From IMG/VR virus record IMGVR_UViG_3300015209_000004, positions 1-28,269 of that record: a stretch of 28,269 nt of DNA. One strand, 5' to 3'. This document shows, in pieces, positions 4,846-11,777 of this stretch. Below the pieces are notes generated by a model, which ran no database searches, had not been told where the DNA came from, and saw only the letters and a program-made list of their open reading frames with translations. How positions within the stretch are numbered: the stretch's first letter is position 1; each line of letters starts with the position of its first letter. Position numbers and translations under genes: made by a program. This DNA comes from a virus.

Positions 4846-6312
4846 ATGATCGACACCGACGCCCCGATGTCCCCCGGGTGGTGGCTCCAGAAACTGGCCA
4901 AGGCGCTCGACGCCAAGCAGCCCCGCCTCCGTGACCTCCGGAACCGATTCGAGGGCGACGCCCCGCTACCGCCCGGGCCGGACGGTGAGGCACGACGGGC
5001 GTACGAGCCGTACTGGCGGAAGGCCCGGACCAACTTCGCCGAGCTGATCGTCGAAGCGCTCCGCCAGCGGCTGAAGGTGACGGGGTTCCGCACGGCGGCC
5101 GGTGGGGACGAGAACGGCGACGAGGCGGCGCGGCGGATTAGCGAGGAGACCGGGTTCGACGTCCTCCAAGCCGACGTCCACGAGTACGTCTTCTCGATGG
5201 GCGAGGGGTACACGATCACCGGGTTGGACACCTCGACGGGACGGCCGGTTACGACGGCTGAGGACCCACGTCAGGTCATCACGATCCACGACCCGGTGTT
5301 CGAGCGGATCGTCCGCGCCGGGTTGAAGATGTTCCACGACGACGACATGGACCGGGACTACGCCTACCTGTACCTCCCCGGCCTTCGCGCCCCAGGCTTG
5401 GCCGGACCCATCCCGGCTCGGGTGTTCGTCGCATACTTCGACCGCAAGCAGCTCCGCTCGGTCGGACCGAGGTTCGCACCTCGTACGTGGTCGTGGGACG
5501 ACACGAGGGGCGGCGCCGACGGTGAGGCGCTGATCGGTGCCGCCGGGAACGTCCTGGTCCGCCCCCCGATCGTGCGGTTCCGCAACCGTCACGGCGTCGC
5601 GGAGTTCGAGCATCACACAGACGTGCTCGACCGCCTCGACCACGGAACGCTTCAGCGCATGGTCATCGCCACGATGCAGGCGTTCCGTCAGCGCGCGATC
5701 AAGGGCGCCCCGATCACGGACCCGGCAACAGGGCTCAAGATCAACTACGACGACCTCCTCGCCGCCGACCCCGGCTCGGTCTGGCTCCTCCCGGGCGTGG
5801 TCGAGATGTGGGAATCCGGTCAGGTCGACCTGACCGGCGTCCTGACCGCCAGCAAGGATGACCTCCGGGTCCTCGCAGCTGTCACGCAGACGCCGCTGGC
5901 GGCGTTCATGCCGTCGGAGGGAGCGCAGACCGCGGAGGGAGCGACGTTCCAGCGGGAGGGGCTCGTTTTCAAGGCCGGCGACCGGATGGTCAGGCTCACC
6001 GAGGGTTGGAAGGACAAGATGGCCCTCGAGTTCGAGGTGCTCGGCGACCTCGAGCGGGCCGACCGTTCGCAGGTCGAGGTTCTGTGGCAGTCGCCGGAGC
6101 GCAGGTCGCTGGCCGAGATGGCGGATGCCTGGTCGAAGACGGGTGACCTGCCCTTCGCCTCCCGGGCCGAACTGGTGCTCGGCTCGACACCATTGCAGCT
6201 TGCCCGCATGGAGTCCCAGCGGGCCGCTGACGCCCTGATGATGGCGGCGCTCCTGCCGGCGCCGGCACCGCTGGGCCTTCCCGCCGGACCCGCGCCCACC
6301 ACCGGCGCCTGA
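4846..6312 (+). CDS. Portal protein (SPP1 gp6-like)
   Basis: 488 residues behind GAGGAGG. Portal-like features: N-terminal helix, RRAYEPYWRKARTNFAELIVEAL, a middle region with repeated VFERIVRAG / FVAYFDRKQ strands, a clip/stem segment RMVIATMQAFRQRAIKG, and the conserved AAVTQTPLAAFMPSEGAQTAEGA loop followed by a long helix (about 350-420). The C-terminus is Ala/Pro-rich. It forms the dodecameric ring at the head vertex through which DNA passes. Its position after terL and TGATG overlap with the MuF-like gene are canonical. Confidence 0.93.
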   Translation: MIDTDAPMSPGWWLQKLAKALDAKQPRLRDLRNRFEGDAPLPPGPDGEARRAYEPYWRKARTNFAELIVEALRQRLKVTGFRTAAGGDENGDEAARRISEETGFDVLQADVHEYVFSMGEGYTITGLDTSTGRPVTTAEDPRQVITIHDPVFERIVRAGLKMFHDDDMDRDYAYLYLPGLRAPGLAGPIPARVFVAYFDRKQLRSVGPRFAPRTWSWDDTRGGADGEALIGAAGNVLVRPPIVRFRNRHGVAEFEHHTDVLDRLDHGTLQRMVIATMQAFRQRAIKGAPITDPATGLKINYDDLLAADPGSVWLLPGVVEMWESGQVDLTGVLTASKDDLRVLAAVTQTPLAAFMPSEGAQTAEGATFQREGLVFKAGDRMVRLTEGWKDKMALEFEVLGDLERADRSQVEVLWQSPERRSLAEMADAWSKTGDLPFASRAELVLGSTPLQLARMESQRAADALMMAALLPAPAPLGLPAGPAPTTGA

Positions 6313-7034
6313 TGCCGACCGCTGAGGACCTCGGCCGCCACGCCGTCGCCTACAAGACGATCACGGCGCTGATCCGCCAACGTGTCCTCGACTACTTCGC
6401 CGCCACCTGGGGCGGCCTTGGCGCCTACCGGGACGCCGACATCGACCGGTGGGTCGCAACGATCCTCCCCGTGGTCAACGCCGGCCTCGCGCAGACCGCC
6501 TCCCTCACCGACGCCTACCTAGCCTCCGTCATCGCCTCCAAAACCGGCGAGGCTGCCACTCCGGCCGGCGTACGACCCGCTGACGTGACCACCGACGCCC
6601 TCCGAGGCGTTCCCGGCGCCGAGGTCTACGGCCGGGCCGGTGTGACCGTGTGGACCGCCCTAGCCGCCGGTGTCCCGTTCGCCGCCGCCGTGCAGCGAGG
6701 GTTGGACCGGGCGCAGCAGATCGCCGCCACCGACATGCAACTCGCCGCCACGCACACCACGGCATCTGTCCTCGGCGGTGACAGCCGGGTGGCCGGCTAC
6801 GTCCGGGTCGTCAGCGGCGGCGCCTGCGAGTTGTGTGCGGCCGCAGACGGGACGTTCTCCCGCTCCGACGACCTACTCGCCGTCCACGTAGGCTGTTCTT
6901 GCTCCTGCGAACCAGTACTCCGCGACGAGGAGCGCCCGAAGGCCGAGCCTGACACTGACGTCGTCGAGGTCCACGAGCACGGGGAAATCGGGCCGGTGCT
7001 GACCACACCCGGACAGGCGTTCACTGAACCCTGA
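6312..7034 (+). CDS. MuF-like minor head protein
   Basis: 240 residues. The N-terminal two thirds is helical (AVAYKTITALIRQRVLDYF and later DRAQQIAATDMQLAATH). The C-terminal part has C172-x2-C175 in GACELCAAADG, then H192, C195, C197 and C199 in AVHVGCSCSCEPV. This CxxC plus H-x-x-C-x-C arrangement is typical of the MuF domain in actinophage head proteins next to portal. Such proteins are internal minor capsid proteins, sometimes annotated as capsid maturation protease. I see no protease catalytic residues. The acidic tail (EVHEHGEIG) is probably flexible. Confidence 0.85.
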   Translation: MPTAEDLGRHAVAYKTITALIRQRVLDYFAATWGGLGAYRDADIDRWVATILPVVNAGLAQTASLTDAYLASVIASKTGEAATPAGVRPADVTTDALRGVPGAEVYGRAGVTVWTALAAGVPFAAAVQRGLDRAQQIAATDMQLAATHTTASVLGGDSRVAGYVRVVSGGACELCAAADGTFSRSDDLLAVHVGCSCSCEPVLRDEERPKAEPDTDVVEVHEHGEIGPVLTTPGQAFTEP

Positions 7035-7134: not shown

Positions 7135-7836
7135 GTGCACACGACCGAGCGCGCCCTCAAGCCGGGCCCTCTTCTCCCTACGCTCATAGAGCGGATCCCC
7201 TACGACGTCCTTTCCCGCTTCCGGATGGAGGCTGGCTCTGACGGCGGCACCGACTCCGGCGGCGGCGGAGACGCCGGCAAGCCCGACCCCGACGCCAAGA
7301 CGTTCACACAGGCCGACCTTGACCGGCACATCGCCGACAGGTTGGCCAGGGACCGAGCGTCCAAGTCGGACTACGACGACCTGAAGGCGGCGAAGGTGGA
7401 GCTGGACGAACTGAAGGCCAAGGGCCAGACCGAGCAGGAGAAGGCGGTCACCAAGGCCGCGAAGGACGCCGAGCAGGCGGCACGCTCAGACGAGCGGAGC
7501 AAGGCCGACACCCGGGTCCTCCGGGCCGAGGTGAAAGCGGCAGCCGGAGCGAAGTTCGCCTCCCCGGCGGACGCTCTCGCCCTTGTCGATCTGACCGGAC
7601 TGTCCGTCGCCGACGACGGGACCGTGGACGAGACGGCGATCGCGAAGCGGCTCGACGACCTACTGGCCGCCAAGCCGTACCTCGCCGCCGGCTCCGCCGG
7701 AGGCAACGCCTCGACGGCCGCCGGCCTCGCCGGACTTGGTCAGGGGCAGCGTCAACCGGCCGGGAAGGTCTCCGGCAAGGAGCAGGGGCTGGCAATGGCC
7801 GCGAAGCGGTTCGGCCCCCGAGACAAGAACACCTAG
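7135..7836 (+). CDS. Scaffolding protein
   Basis: 233 residues from a GTG with a strong GGAGG five to six bases upstream; an in-frame ATG at 7225 is an alternative with a weaker site. A Gly/Asp-rich N-terminus leads into KTFTQADLDRHIADRLARDR, the conserved entry to scaffold coiled coils. A long Lys/Glu/Ala helix follows (about 75-140, ELDELKAKGQTEQEKAVTKA), then a small ordered part and a basic C-terminus (KRFGPRDKNT) of the sort that touches capsid protein. It guides prohead assembly and is then lost. Position between MuF-like and capsid genes fits. Confidence 0.9.
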   Translation: MHTTERALKPGPLLPTLIERIPYDVLSRFRMEAGSDGGTDSGGGGDAGKPDPDAKTFTQADLDRHIADRLARDRASKSDYDDLKAAKVELDELKAKGQTEQEKAVTKAAKDAEQAARSDERSKADTRVLRAEVKAAAGAKFASPADALALVDLTGLSVADDGTVDETAIAKRLDDLLAAKPYLAAGSAGGNASTAAGLAGLGQGQRQPAGKVSGKEQGLAMAAKRFGPRDKNT

Positions 7837-8586: not shown

Positions 8587-8602
8587 GAGAAGGAGACCAG
8601 AC

Positions 8603-9634
8603 ATGACAATCGTCTTCGACGGCCCCGTCAACCCGGATGCACTTACGACGTTCGTTCGTGAGGTGCCGCTCCCGGCGGAGTTCGTCCTCAACCAGATCCT
8701 CCCCGACCGCTACAAGACGACGAACATCGTCGACCTGGCGGAGATCACCCGCACGAACCGCACCGCCCGGTTCCGCGCTTACGACGGCCGCCTCCACGTC
8801 TCCGAGCGTGATGCCGTCAGCCTCAAGCAGGTCAAGCTGCCGCCTCTCTCCACGTCCTACAGCATGGGCGAGTACGAGCGGCTGCAGCTGGAGTTCACCC
8901 GCACCGGCGGCACGAACACCGCCACCCTCGTCGATGCCGTCTACGACGACGCGACGAACGGCACCCGTGAGGTGCTGGCCCGCATGGAGCAGGCCCGCGG
9001 CGACGTGCTCACCGACGGGAAGTTCACCGTCGCAGGCGAGGGGAACCTGTTCCTCGAAGCCGACTTCGGCGTCCCCGCCACGCACATCGTCACCGCCGCG
9101 ATCCTGTGGTCTGTGGTGGCCACCGCCACGATCGTGCAGAACCTGCGGACCTGGGTCGACGTGTTCATCGCCACCAACGGATTCCCGCCGGAGGGCATGA
9201 TCGTCTCGAACCGCGTCCTGGGCTTCATGCTCCAGAACGCCGAGATCCGCACCCTGGCGTCGTCTCTCACCGGCGCCCCGGCACTCGTGAGCCGCCAGAC
9301 CGTGGAGGGCGCCCTCAACGCCTTCACGCTTCCCCCGATCACCTTCGTCTACGACTCCAAAGTGGACGTGGACGGGACGACCACGGCCGTCATCCCCGAC
9401 GACCGGGTGATCCTCCACGGCCGGGACGTCGGCTACACCGCCTGGGGCATCACGGCCACGTCGCTCGAGTTGGTGAACAGCCAGAAGGTGGACATGTCGT
9501 TCGAGGACGCCCCGGGCATCGTGGGCGTGGTCGAAAAGGACGGGCCGCCGTACCGCGAGTTCACCTACGTCGACGCCGTGGGGATGCCGGTGCTCGAGAA
9601 CCCGAAGCGGCTGTTCGTAGCCAAGGTGCTGTAG
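8603..9634 (+). CDS. Major capsid protein (phage capsid E type)
   Basis: 343 residues; ATG at 8603 behind AAGGAG. The sequence fits the HK97-fold capsid E family: an N-terminal region with FVLNQILPDRYKTTN, a spine-helix region ARMEQARGDVLTDGKFTV, an A-domain part (VDVFIATNGFPPEGMIVSNR) and a C-terminal EKDGPPYREFTYVDAVGMPVL-NPKRLFVAKVL typical of this family. It forms the icosahedral shell. The length is normal. Order scaffold, decoration, capsid is standard. No frameshift or insertion. Confidence 0.93.
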   Translation: MTIVFDGPVNPDALTTFVREVPLPAEFVLNQILPDRYKTTNIVDLAEITRTNRTARFRAYDGRLHVSERDAVSLKQVKLPPLSTSYSMGEYERLQLEFTRTGGTNTATLVDAVYDDATNGTREVLARMEQARGDVLTDGKFTVAGEGNLFLEADFGVPATHIVTAAILWSVVATATIVQNLRTWVDVFIATNGFPPEGMIVSNRVLGFMLQNAEIRTLASSLTGAPALVSRQTVEGALNAFTLPPITFVYDSKVDVDGTTTAVIPDDRVILHGRDVGYTAWGITATSLELVNSQKVDMSFEDAPGIVGVVEKDGPPYREFTYVDAVGMPVLENPKRLFVAKVL

Positions 9635-10009
9635 GTGGGCCGCCGCCTCAGCGACAACGTCTGGCTCACGGTGGACAACGTGCCGCGGTTCCTCGCGGCC
9701 GGTTCCGAGCCGACCGAAGCCGAGGCGGCGCTCATCAAGAACGAGAAGGCGTGGGAGGACGAGCCGAAGCGCTTCACAGCCTCGCCCGGCGAGTCGTTCG
9801 ACAACCGCGACGAGGCGCTCGACATCGTCAAGGCTCCGCCCCGCGAGGCGCTCGACATCGTCAAGGCTCCGCCCCGCAAGGGCCCGGGTTCCAGCCGTGC
9901 AGCCTGGGCCGCGTACGCCACCGCTCGCGGCCTCGACGTGCCGGAATCCGCTGACCGCGACGGCATCATCATCGAGGTCGAGATTATCGACGGACACGCC
10001 GAGGAATGA
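9635..10009 (+). CDS. Small head-tail region protein with internal repeat
   Basis: 124 residues from a GTG directly after the capsid stop. The middle contains EALDIVKAPPR twice in tandem, from a perfect 33-bp duplication. The C-terminus, SRAAWAAYATARGLDVPESADRDGIIIEVE, resembles small helix-extended-helix/SAP-like peptide folds found in short proteins after phage capsid genes, which bind DNA or protein; this is a resemblance only. It ends in an ATGA overlap with the connector gene. It may occupy the connector or be non-structural. Confidence 0.65.
   Translation: MGRRLSDNVWLTVDNVPRFLAAGSEPTEAEAALIKNEKAWEDEPKRFTASPGESFDNRDEALDIVKAPPREALDIVKAPPRKGPGSSRAAWAAYATARGLDVPESADRDGIIIEVEIIDGHAEE
9812..9877 (+). 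repeat. Perfect 33-bp tandem duplication
   Basis: Units 9812-9844 and 9845-9877 are identical and keep frame, adding 11 residues (EALDIVKAPPR). Absence of any substitution between the two copies suggests a recent event. Confidence 0.95.
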
Positions 10010-10407
10010 CCGTGACCCCGCTGGCCACGGTCGCCGACATCGAGGCCCGGGGTCACCCCGTCTCCGATTTCGACGAGGTGGCGCACATGGACCACCTGCT
10101 CCGTCTGGGCTCGGCGCTCCTCCGCCGACGGTTCGCCACGATCGACGTCCGAATCGCCAACCTCACGCTCGACGCCGAGCTAGTCAAGGACGTCCTGGTG
10201 GCGATGGTCCTCCGATCACCATCGGTCGCCAACCCGGGCGGCATCCGAAGCGAGAGCGTCGGCGCTTACAGCGTGACCTACGCGGTGACGTCCGGGTCCG
10301 GCGACGACGAGCTGGGCTTGACCGCTCAGGAGGCCGCGCTTCTCGCTCCGGCGGAGGAGACGTGGGCGCCGTTCGGGTCGGTGCGGTTGCGGGCGGCGCT
10401 CGGATGA
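10006..10407 (+). CDS. Head-tail adaptor protein
   Basis: 133 residues, ATGA overlap upstream. It begins PLATVADIEARGH, continues with helices MDHLLRLGSALLRRRF and AELVKDVLVAMVLRSPSVANPGGIRSESVGAYSVTY, then ends with LTAQEAALLAP. This helix bundle with a SESVGAYSVTY-type loop matches the Gp19/Gp15 (HK97 gp6-like) adaptor family of actinophages. It forms the ring under the portal that starts the neck. Genes before and after fit the connector order. Confidence 0.85.
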   Translation: MTVTPLATVADIEARGHPVSDFDEVAHMDHLLRLGSALLRRRFATIDVRIANLTLDAELVKDVLVAMVLRSPSVANPGGIRSESVGAYSVTYAVTSGSGDDELGLTAQEAALLAPAEETWAPFGSVRLRAALG

Positions 10408-10730
10408 CGCTGGCATCGTTGCTGACCCAGGCGGGCACGCTCCGCCGCCGGTCGGCTGTGACCCCGGACGCCGAGGGCAACCCGGTGGCGTCCGTCGTCC
10501 AGGTGGAGACAGTGGGCCGCCTGGACCAGCAGTCGACCGGCGACCTGGCCGACGGTGACCGCCGCACCACACGCCTCGTCCTGATCCTCGGCCGGGATGA
10601 GATGATCGACGGGAGCGACCAGTGGTCTCAGGACGGTCGCACCTACGAGGTGGTCGGCTCTCCACACCTGGCCTCGTCGCCGCGAGGTCCGCACCATTGG
10701 GAGGTCGAGTTGCGCGAGGTGACGCCGTGA
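10404..10730 (+). CDS. Head closure (stopper) protein
   Basis: 108 residues; ATG at 10404 overlaps the adaptor stop. It is a small beta-rich protein: TLRRRSAVTPDAEGNPVASVVQVETVGRL, TTRLVLILGRDEMIDGSDQW and DGRTYEVVGSPH, then HHWEVELREV. The D-x-W-x-x-DGRTYEVVG signature is characteristic of phage head-tail joining/stopper proteins (SPP1 gp16-like). It closes the filled head after packaging. GTGA overlap with the next gene. Confidence 0.8.
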   Translation: MTLASLLTQAGTLRRRSAVTPDAEGNPVASVVQVETVGRLDQQSTGDLADGDRRTTRLVLILGRDEMIDGSDQWSQDGRTYEVVGSPHLASSPRGPHHWEVELREVTP

Positions 10731-10882
10731 GCACCCGGCACGTGGTCCCCATCGGCGATGTCATCGAGCACGAGCTGGGCGACGACTGCCCGTGTGGGCC
10801 ACGGGTCGAGTTCGTCACGGGGGGTTCGGTGGTCGTCCACTACAGCCTCGATAACCGGGAAGCCGCGGAGATGACCGGGTGA
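10727..10882 (+). CDS. Small conserved phage protein with DDCPCGP motif
   Basis: 51 residues, GTG start. It reads HVVPIGDVIEHELGDDCPCG, PRVEF, then VVHYSLDNRE. I recognise this as a small protein recurring in actinophage connector regions, with the shape HVVP-x-D-xx-EH-xxx-D-C-x-CGP then VVH-x-SLD-x-RE, function unknown. The CxCG-P motif may bind a metal. It is coupled by GTGA overlaps to the stopper gene before and the Ntn-hydrolase gene after. It was probably retained because it is needed with its neighbours. Confidence 0.7.
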   Translation: MSTRHVVPIGDVIEHELGDDCPCGPRVEFVTGGSVVVHYSLDNREAAEMTG

Positions 10883-11439
10883 CTGCCGCTCTGGCCATCG
10901 CTGCTGATGGTGACGTGGTGGTCGGCATCGACTCCTGCTCAACCTGGCCGGGCGGGATGACGGTCGACAACGCCGAGAAGGGCATCGCCGAGTTCAGCTT
11001 CGATGGCCACCCGCCGCTCGTGGTGGTCTGCGCCGGCAGTTCGATGATCGCCGACGAGATGGCCAACGTTTGGGTCCCGCCGGTGCCCGCTAGCGCCGAG
11101 CCGATCGCGTTCCTCCGTGCCTGCTCGGCCTCGCTCCGGGCGTTCTTCTCGGAGGAGCCGAGGTGGACGATGGGGAAGGAAGAGGACGGCCGGAGCATCG
11201 CGGGCCACTTCGCGGCCGGGTGGCGGGGTGTCGCGGTGGAGATCAGCAGCGACTTCGGCGTGCTCCGCCCCCGCTCGGGCGAGGTGGCGATTGGTAGCGG
11301 CCGAGACTTCGTGTTCGGCGCGTTGGCTGCGACCAGAGGGCGACCGGCGGAAGAGCGGGTACGAGTCGCACTCGAAGCGGCCGCTGAGTACCAGCAGGAC
11401 GTGGCAGGACCGTTCGCCATCCGATGGGCTGGCCGCTGA
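10879..11439 (+). CDS. Proteasome/HslV-like Ntn-hydrolase
   Basis: 186 residues from a GTG, followed at once by Thr. After Met removal, numbering from this Thr gives T1, D17 (VVVGIDS) and K33 (DNAEK), exactly the catalytic positions of proteasome beta subunits and HslV. Further family marks are VVCAGSSMIADEM (substrate-pocket/helix 1 region), AIGSGRDFVFGALAATRG and ERVRVALEAAAEY, comparable to the AIGSG loop of HslV. There is no propeptide, as in HslV. These enzymes are self-assembling threonine peptidases. No unfoldase is visible in the window. It sits inside the connector operon (GTGA before, TGATG after), so a morphogenetic or host-targeting role is inferred, not shown. Confidence 0.85.
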   Translation: MTAALAIAADGDVVVGIDSCSTWPGGMTVDNAEKGIAEFSFDGHPPLVVVCAGSSMIADEMANVWVPPVPASAEPIAFLRACSASLRAFFSEEPRWTMGKEEDGRSIAGHFAAGWRGVAVEISSDFGVLRPRSGEVAIGSGRDFVFGALAATRGRPAEERVRVALEAAAEYQQDVAGPFAIRWAGR

Positions 11440-11777
11440 TGGCCGGACTGAGCGTGCGCGTCAGAGTCACCGACGACAATACCGACGCCCGACTCGCGGA
11501 CATCCGGCGCGCGGTGGAGGTTGGGATAGCCGCTGCAATCCCGGGCGTCATCGCTGTGGCTGACCGGAACGTCCGCGGCTACTCGCGTCGTGTGGCCCGT
11601 GGCCTCATCTCACTGCAGGTCGGCCCGGCCACCTGGAAGATCATCGGGTCCCATCCCATCTCCCACATCGTGGAGAACGGCGCCAGACAGGTCGCCGCCC
11701 GCCCGTTCCTCGTGCCGGCGCTGATGTCGTCTCGGGTCGACGTGGTCCGCCGGATCATCGACGCGGCCCGTGCCTGA
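11439..11777 (+). CDS. Neck/tail completion protein (HK97 gp10-like)
   Basis: 112 residues. The ATG at 11439 overlaps the previous stop; an in-frame ATG at 11424 is less likely since it lies well inside the Ntn-hydrolase gene. The motif GSHPISHIVENGARQVAARPFLVPAL is diagnostic of HK97 gp10-like proteins (the E-x-G-x-x...ARPFLxPA region). A long N-terminal helix (ADIRRAVEVGIAAAIPGVIAVADR) precedes it. The family acts at the head-tail junction or tail completion. Followed by the tail terminator gene with an 8-bp overlap. Confidence 0.8.
   Translation: MAGLSVRVRVTDDNTDARLADIRRAVEVGIAAAIPGVIAVADRNVRGYSRRVARGLISLQVGPATWKIIGSHPISHIVENGARQVAARPFLVPALMSSRVDVVRRIIDAARA

Follow-up and report, generated by a model that had tools for sequence, protein, structure and literature searches.

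In HslV and the proteasomes, an N-terminal threonine (Thr1) attacks peptide bonds, Lys33 and Asp17 shape its reactivity, and the ring of subunits hides the active sites. The prohead proteases of tailed phages belong to a fold class other than the HslV type. Phage proteasome homologs have been described under the names PPH, AAH, and CPH, with phage transmission noted (Fuchs, Alva and Lupas 2021), and no AAA+ partner, function, or informative genomic context was found for them (PMC8665760). At the time of that study, in 2021, no Actinobacteria-specific phage with an AAH was known, and the bacterial homolog BPH was found to be apparently not regulated by an unfoldase (PMC8665760). Furthermore, HslV without HslU was noted in a jumbo-phage paper (PMC7823757), and a “proteasome-like” gene is listed in the paper on Alteromonas phage V22 (PMC7289586). 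The peptidase family that concerns us here is not new, having already been catalogued from phages. Phage proteasome homologs have been catalogued without a function, and tight linkage to portal or connector genes in unrelated phages provides a specific hint to substrate; clean natural deletions provide ready-made comparisons. Here, we describe a locus that is an informative but not unique location for this known, uncharacterized phage family.

The locus lies in a 28,269-nucleotide stretch of viral DNA (positions 1 to 28,269 of IMG/VR record IMGVR_UViG_3300015209_000004), the whole of which is referred to here as the window. Its genes encode a terminase, a portal, a MuF/VG15-like protein, a scaffold, a decoration protein, a PF03864 capsid protein, a connector, Ad1, Hc1, a 51-aa ORF, the peptidase, a neck protein, a tape measure, and fibers. 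The features central to the comparison are as follows, with profile matches and their E values in parentheses.

6312..7034, + strand: probable MuF/VG15-like minor head protein (phrog_1522, E = 5.8e-41, N-terminal third of the profile; Pfam VG15 weakly)
7135..7836, + strand: scaffold protein (phrog_4708, 5.3e-19)
8600..9634, + strand: major capsid protein (PF03864), lacking any N-terminal pre-sequence when compared with relatives that do not have the peptidase
10006..10407, + strand: head-tail adaptor Ad1 (phrog_137, 4.8e-15)
10404..10730, + strand: head closure Hc1/stopper protein (phrog_501, 2.2e-7)
10727..10882, + strand: 51-aa ORF (phrog_2864, no function assigned), with a GTGA overlap with the peptidase gene
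10879..11439, + strand: predicted HslV/proteasome-type Thr1 Ntn-hydrolase, 186 aa, GTG start (from the ORF, phrog_1040, model and fold, and family alignment)
11439..11777, + strand: neck/tail completion (HK97 gp10-like) protein (phrog_5, 4e-4; TIGR01725, 0.028)

The peptidase gene sits inside the connector operon, as a preliminary description of this DNA had stated, with Hc1 and the 51-aa ORF upstream and the neck gene downstream. Its start codon overlaps the stop codon of the 51-aa ORF, and its 3′ end overlaps the neck gene in the sequence TGATG. Because of this junction, and because the neck gene of a relative (L011) begins MAGFRV, the likeliest start of the neck gene is the ATG at 11439 and not 11424. 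GC content by codon position in the peptidase gene (0.69/0.56/0.84) matches that of the neighboring genes, and the ORF is therefore a real coding gene. Its translation (10879-11439) reads MTAALAIAADGDVVVGIDSCSTWPGGMTVDNAEKGI..., with Thr immediately after the start codon and hence without a propeptide. The catalytic residues T2, D18, and K34 become T1, D17, and K33 once Met is removed, in the spacing of HslV and the proteasome, and the loops VVVCAGSSMI (AGSS) and AIGSGRDF (AIGSG) are present, with GSG at residues 139-141.

The preliminary description had reported no unfoldase, and among the genes that we scanned, part of the ORFs of this single viral contig, there was likewise none of the AAA+ type. 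Its statement that no other prohead protease is recognizable needs a caveat: the gene at 6312-7034 matches phrog_1522, “head maturation protease.” This label may mislead because the match covers only the N-terminal third of the profile, and a MuF-like minor head protein is more likely than a head maturation protease. In the connector protein gene, an 11-residue unit, EALDIVKAPPR, occurs twice in tandem (9812-9877).

The kinship of the peptidase is visible only via PHROGs, a family profile, and a structure model. In a PHROGs profile search, residues 7-179 matched phrog_1040, “peptidase HslV family” (E = 2.5e-7). Neither Pfam nor NCBIfam gave a match, phmmer with the sequence alone against the PDB returned only chance matches and no HslV, and scanning viral and genome contigs with the single protein yielded no close relative. 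A profile of 22 family members matched HslV (2.9e-11) and BPH (4.3e-10). The AlphaFold2 model, guided by an alignment of 21 relatives from viral contigs, reached a pLDDT of 87.7 and a pTM of 0.84 and has the four-layer Ntn fold of HslV and proteasome beta. Its leading PDB matches in Foldseek were all HslV, BPH, proteasome beta, or Anbu; against Escherichia coli HslV (1e94_A), 169 residues aligned (Z = 20.1, 2.7 Å, 17% identity over the structural alignment), starting with model residue 2 at chain residue 1.

Across a non-redundant alignment of 64 long-type members, the window peptidase included, T/S1 is kept in 64/64 (Thr in 62, Ser in 2), as are D17 (64/64), K33 (64/64), and GxG (64/64). A smaller MAFFT alignment misplaced the window K33, which falls in an invariant Lys column in the larger, non-redundant one. 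In the family tree, the window peptidase stands on a long branch (2.5) with weakly supported placement, and tblastn found no second copy of the family in the window contig. Taken together, sequence and predicted structure provide good support for a proteasome superfamily member with an intact active site, for which peptidase activity would be expected; a chance motif is ruled out by the fold and the family conservation. The complete T1/D17/K33 site claimed at the outset is thereby borne out, both by the reading of the ORF and by its invariance in the family, and the AIGSG loop is present, as stated. The preliminary description had left room for a fold outside the Ntn class and for relatives with unconserved T1, D17, and K33; the model has the HslV/BPH/proteasome fold, the three residues are kept throughout the alignment, and both HslV and Anbu, to which it had proposed comparing a predicted structure, are among the leading structural matches.

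Among described systems, the named members of phrog_1040 (Eps7 AGC_0103, Gordonia phage Daredevil gp62, and Vibrio phage phiTY18) share with the window peptidase T1/D17/K33, the lack of a propeptide, and a length of about 175-230 aa, at 15-27% identity; in most named phages the gene lies outside the virion operon, whereas the window member lies between the Hc1 and neck genes. PPH, AAH, and CPH are likewise phage-borne, group-I-like, and without a known AAA+ partner or function. PPH has ~140 residues and lacks helix H2, whereas the window peptidase has 186 aa and both helices (model residues 55-63 and 75-92), and PPH membership is ruled out by size and helix H2, judged against the published description (PMC8665760). 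HslV (ClpQ), a double-hexamer ring, is alike in fold, T1/D17/K33, GSG loop, and compact subunit but works with HslU, which was not seen among the window genes scanned. BPH (5ovs/5ovt) is among the nearest solved relatives by profile and fold (18-23% identity); it is a chromosomal bacterial gene, whereas the window peptidase is phage-borne. The beta subunit of the 20S proteasome has an N-terminal propeptide and an alpha partner, and the window peptidase has neither, with no second family gene in the contig. The prohead proteases of tailed phages occupy the same type of neighborhood, a head/connector operon, but the window peptidase gene is missing from contigs whose capsid proteins are closely related to that of the window.

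A tblastn search with the family member of a Vibrio phage returned 180 phage records, for the most part from T5-like phages of Salmonella and E. coli. In named phages, the peptidase gene adjoins thymidylate synthase, DHFR, ribonucleotide reductase, RNase H, PhoH, DNA ligase, or small early genes; the enzyme-gene neighbors are seen in T5-like, Vibrio, and Pumpernickel phages, and in T5-like and other phages the peptidase gene is outside virion modules. Long-type members occur in phages of Gordonia, Arthrobacter, and Microbacterium, which may update the 2021 statement on Actinobacteria-specific phages if they prove to be AAH (PMC8665760). Relatives were found by scanning for a degenerate DNA pattern that spans the AIGSGxDF loop; the family alignment is too diverse for a pattern scan. 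Applied to genomes, the loop pattern picked out mainly BPH-like genes from Betaproteobacteria and their relatives and no window-like prophage. The peptidase gene is mobile and dispensable, yet it is found repeatedly in or beside the head/connector module.

Nineteen viral contigs encode capsid proteins 57-73% identical to that of the window. We found no match to the peptidase in these 19 contigs, either by tblastn or by the family profile over the whole record (a search with no positive control among them), an absence that refers to sampled sequence, as the contigs are mostly incomplete and very different in their other genes (mosaic); several cover the connector genes. The neck gene directly follows Hc1 in L012, as it does after a short gap in L005, while other cargo genes (107-168 aa) fill the interval in L011 (5023-5346), L013, L014, and L018, and larger insertions do so in L015 and L021, the genes in this comparison being identified by position and partial homology. 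Since the Hc1-neck interval is empty or holds other cargo in relatives, it is an insertion site, which in the window contains the 51-aa phrog_2864 ORF and the peptidase gene; the ORF may be the second half of the cargo inserted there. A contig scan with the window portal as the query found no close relative.

The preliminary description had suggested, as one possibility, an enzyme that matures the capsid or scaffold and had raised the question of fixation at the connector locus, and here the data point the other way. No copy was found in contigs whose capsid proteins are 67-73% identical, and the capsid N termini are collinear. The capsid protein begins at the same residue whether or not the peptidase gene is present, so that there is no sign of a pre-sequence for the peptidase to remove. 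Nor is the gene fixed: the 19 capsid relatives show no copy in the sampled sequence, and other phages keep it elsewhere, among nucleotide-metabolism or early genes. A prohead protease would be retained wherever its cognate capsid protein occurs, and the peptidase is not so retained in the sampled contigs. We therefore set aside a prohead protease as the sole role, and a specific prohead-protease role in the window phage is unlikely.

Placement in virion modules is nevertheless recurrent. In ct2KA10-like freshwater phages, which have a PF13252 capsid protein (L037-L116, L117 [OX376640.1, 5698-8036], and L145-L221), the peptidase gene directly follows the portal gene in 79 of 80 loci found via the peptidase gene, and in the one exception the 1063 bases upstream contain no portal match. 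When the group was sampled by portal, the peptidase proved nearly fixed there: it directly followed in 59 of the 68 loci with enough sequence after the portal and was cleanly absent from the other 9, where the next small gene comes at once. Divergent peptidase clades occupy the same post-portal place (L161/L165 and L172/L203). In L132 (2059-6327) and L226 (4232-9162), the order is portal, small ORF, peptidase, MuF-like gene, scaffold, and putative capsid, with gene roles in these two and their relatives taken from sequence similarity with no profile check. Relatives of the L132/L226 peptidase, 54-76% identical, lie in other modules (L223, L225, L236, L238, and L240). In L238 (5434-6552), the peptidase gene is downstream of a GroES-like co-chaperonin gene, with an 80-aa ORF between them, and upstream of a clamp-loader-like gene. 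Virion-module placement thus occurs in three unrelated phage kinds (the window, the ct2KA10-like group, and L132/L226), a recurrence that exceeds what random cargo would be expected to show and that hints at virion proteins as substrates in some of the three.

On balance, we consider the window enzyme to be probably an accessory, unfoldase-less, self-compartmentalized Thr1 peptidase, acquired as late-expressed cargo between the head-closure and neck genes, and not an obligatory prohead protease. As a group-I proteasome homolog (HslV/BPH-like), it would lose its Met to free the N-terminal Thr nucleophile and, by analogy with HslV and BPH, may assemble into a ring that shields the active sites. 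Cleavage of short or unfolded polypeptides would proceed without a dedicated phage unfoldase, possibly with the use of a host one; ATP-independent cleavage is plausible because no unfoldase occurs among the genes scanned and BPH is apparently unfoldase-free. The operon position suggests late production with the virion proteins, and the enzyme might clear unassembled or misfolded phage proteins or degrade host proteins. An accessory turnover role of this kind is likelier than specific virion maturation, given that the capsid relatives lack the gene in the sequence sampled and that natural deletions of it occur elsewhere.

Trimming of a capsid, scaffold, portal-proximal, or connector protein during assembly would suit the connector operon of the window, the post-portal position in the ct2KA10-like phages (79/80 and 59/68 loci) and its occupation by divergent clades, and the place between portal and MuF-like gene in L132 and L226. 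Yet we regard such a maturation protease as unlikely in view of the close capsid relatives without the gene, their collinear N termini, the 9/68 portal loci that cleanly lack it, and the T5-like and other phages that carry it outside virion modules. We give similarly low credence to the idea that a proteasome-type Thr peptidase has been taken into virion assembly on several independent occasions, as a protease with portal, connector, or internal head proteins as its targets, for which the ct2KA10-like freshwater phages make the strongest case and the window the second. If its substrates are virion proteins, the enzyme would represent a class of maturation protease new to phages; to our knowledge, no virion-assembly protease of proteasome type has been described in tailed phages. 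The mobility of the gene and its scattered occurrence in unrelated phages and in different modules, together with the nucleotide-metabolism and early-gene neighborhoods, would also fit an auxiliary or counter-defense gene whose product degrades or activates specific host proteins (of defense, stress, or the proteasome/pupylation pathway, pupylation having been raised in the preliminary description). This is a possible but doubtful reading: there is no conserved partner gene, host target, or host assignment, the setting in the window is one of late genes, and the 2021 study found no informative genomic context for the family (PMC8665760).

Two further readings concern the protein itself. Connectase is a case of changed chemistry on this fold (PMC8665760), and the low identity to HslV leaves room for a different Ntn enzyme, such as a connectase-like protein ligase or a small-molecule amidase; we find this improbable, as the solved proteins closest to the window peptidase, in sequence and in structure alike, are HslV and BPH and the model has no connectase-like insertion. 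An inactive or decaying gene, to which the long branch and a composition unlike the rest of the family might point, is highly improbable given intact catalytic residues and both GSG-loop glycines, a normal codon-position bias, and a confident model.

Short proteasome homologs of PPH-like size also occur: L121, L140, L141, and L144 carry an identical one of 138 aa, and L122, L129-L131, and L139 carry others with different sequences.
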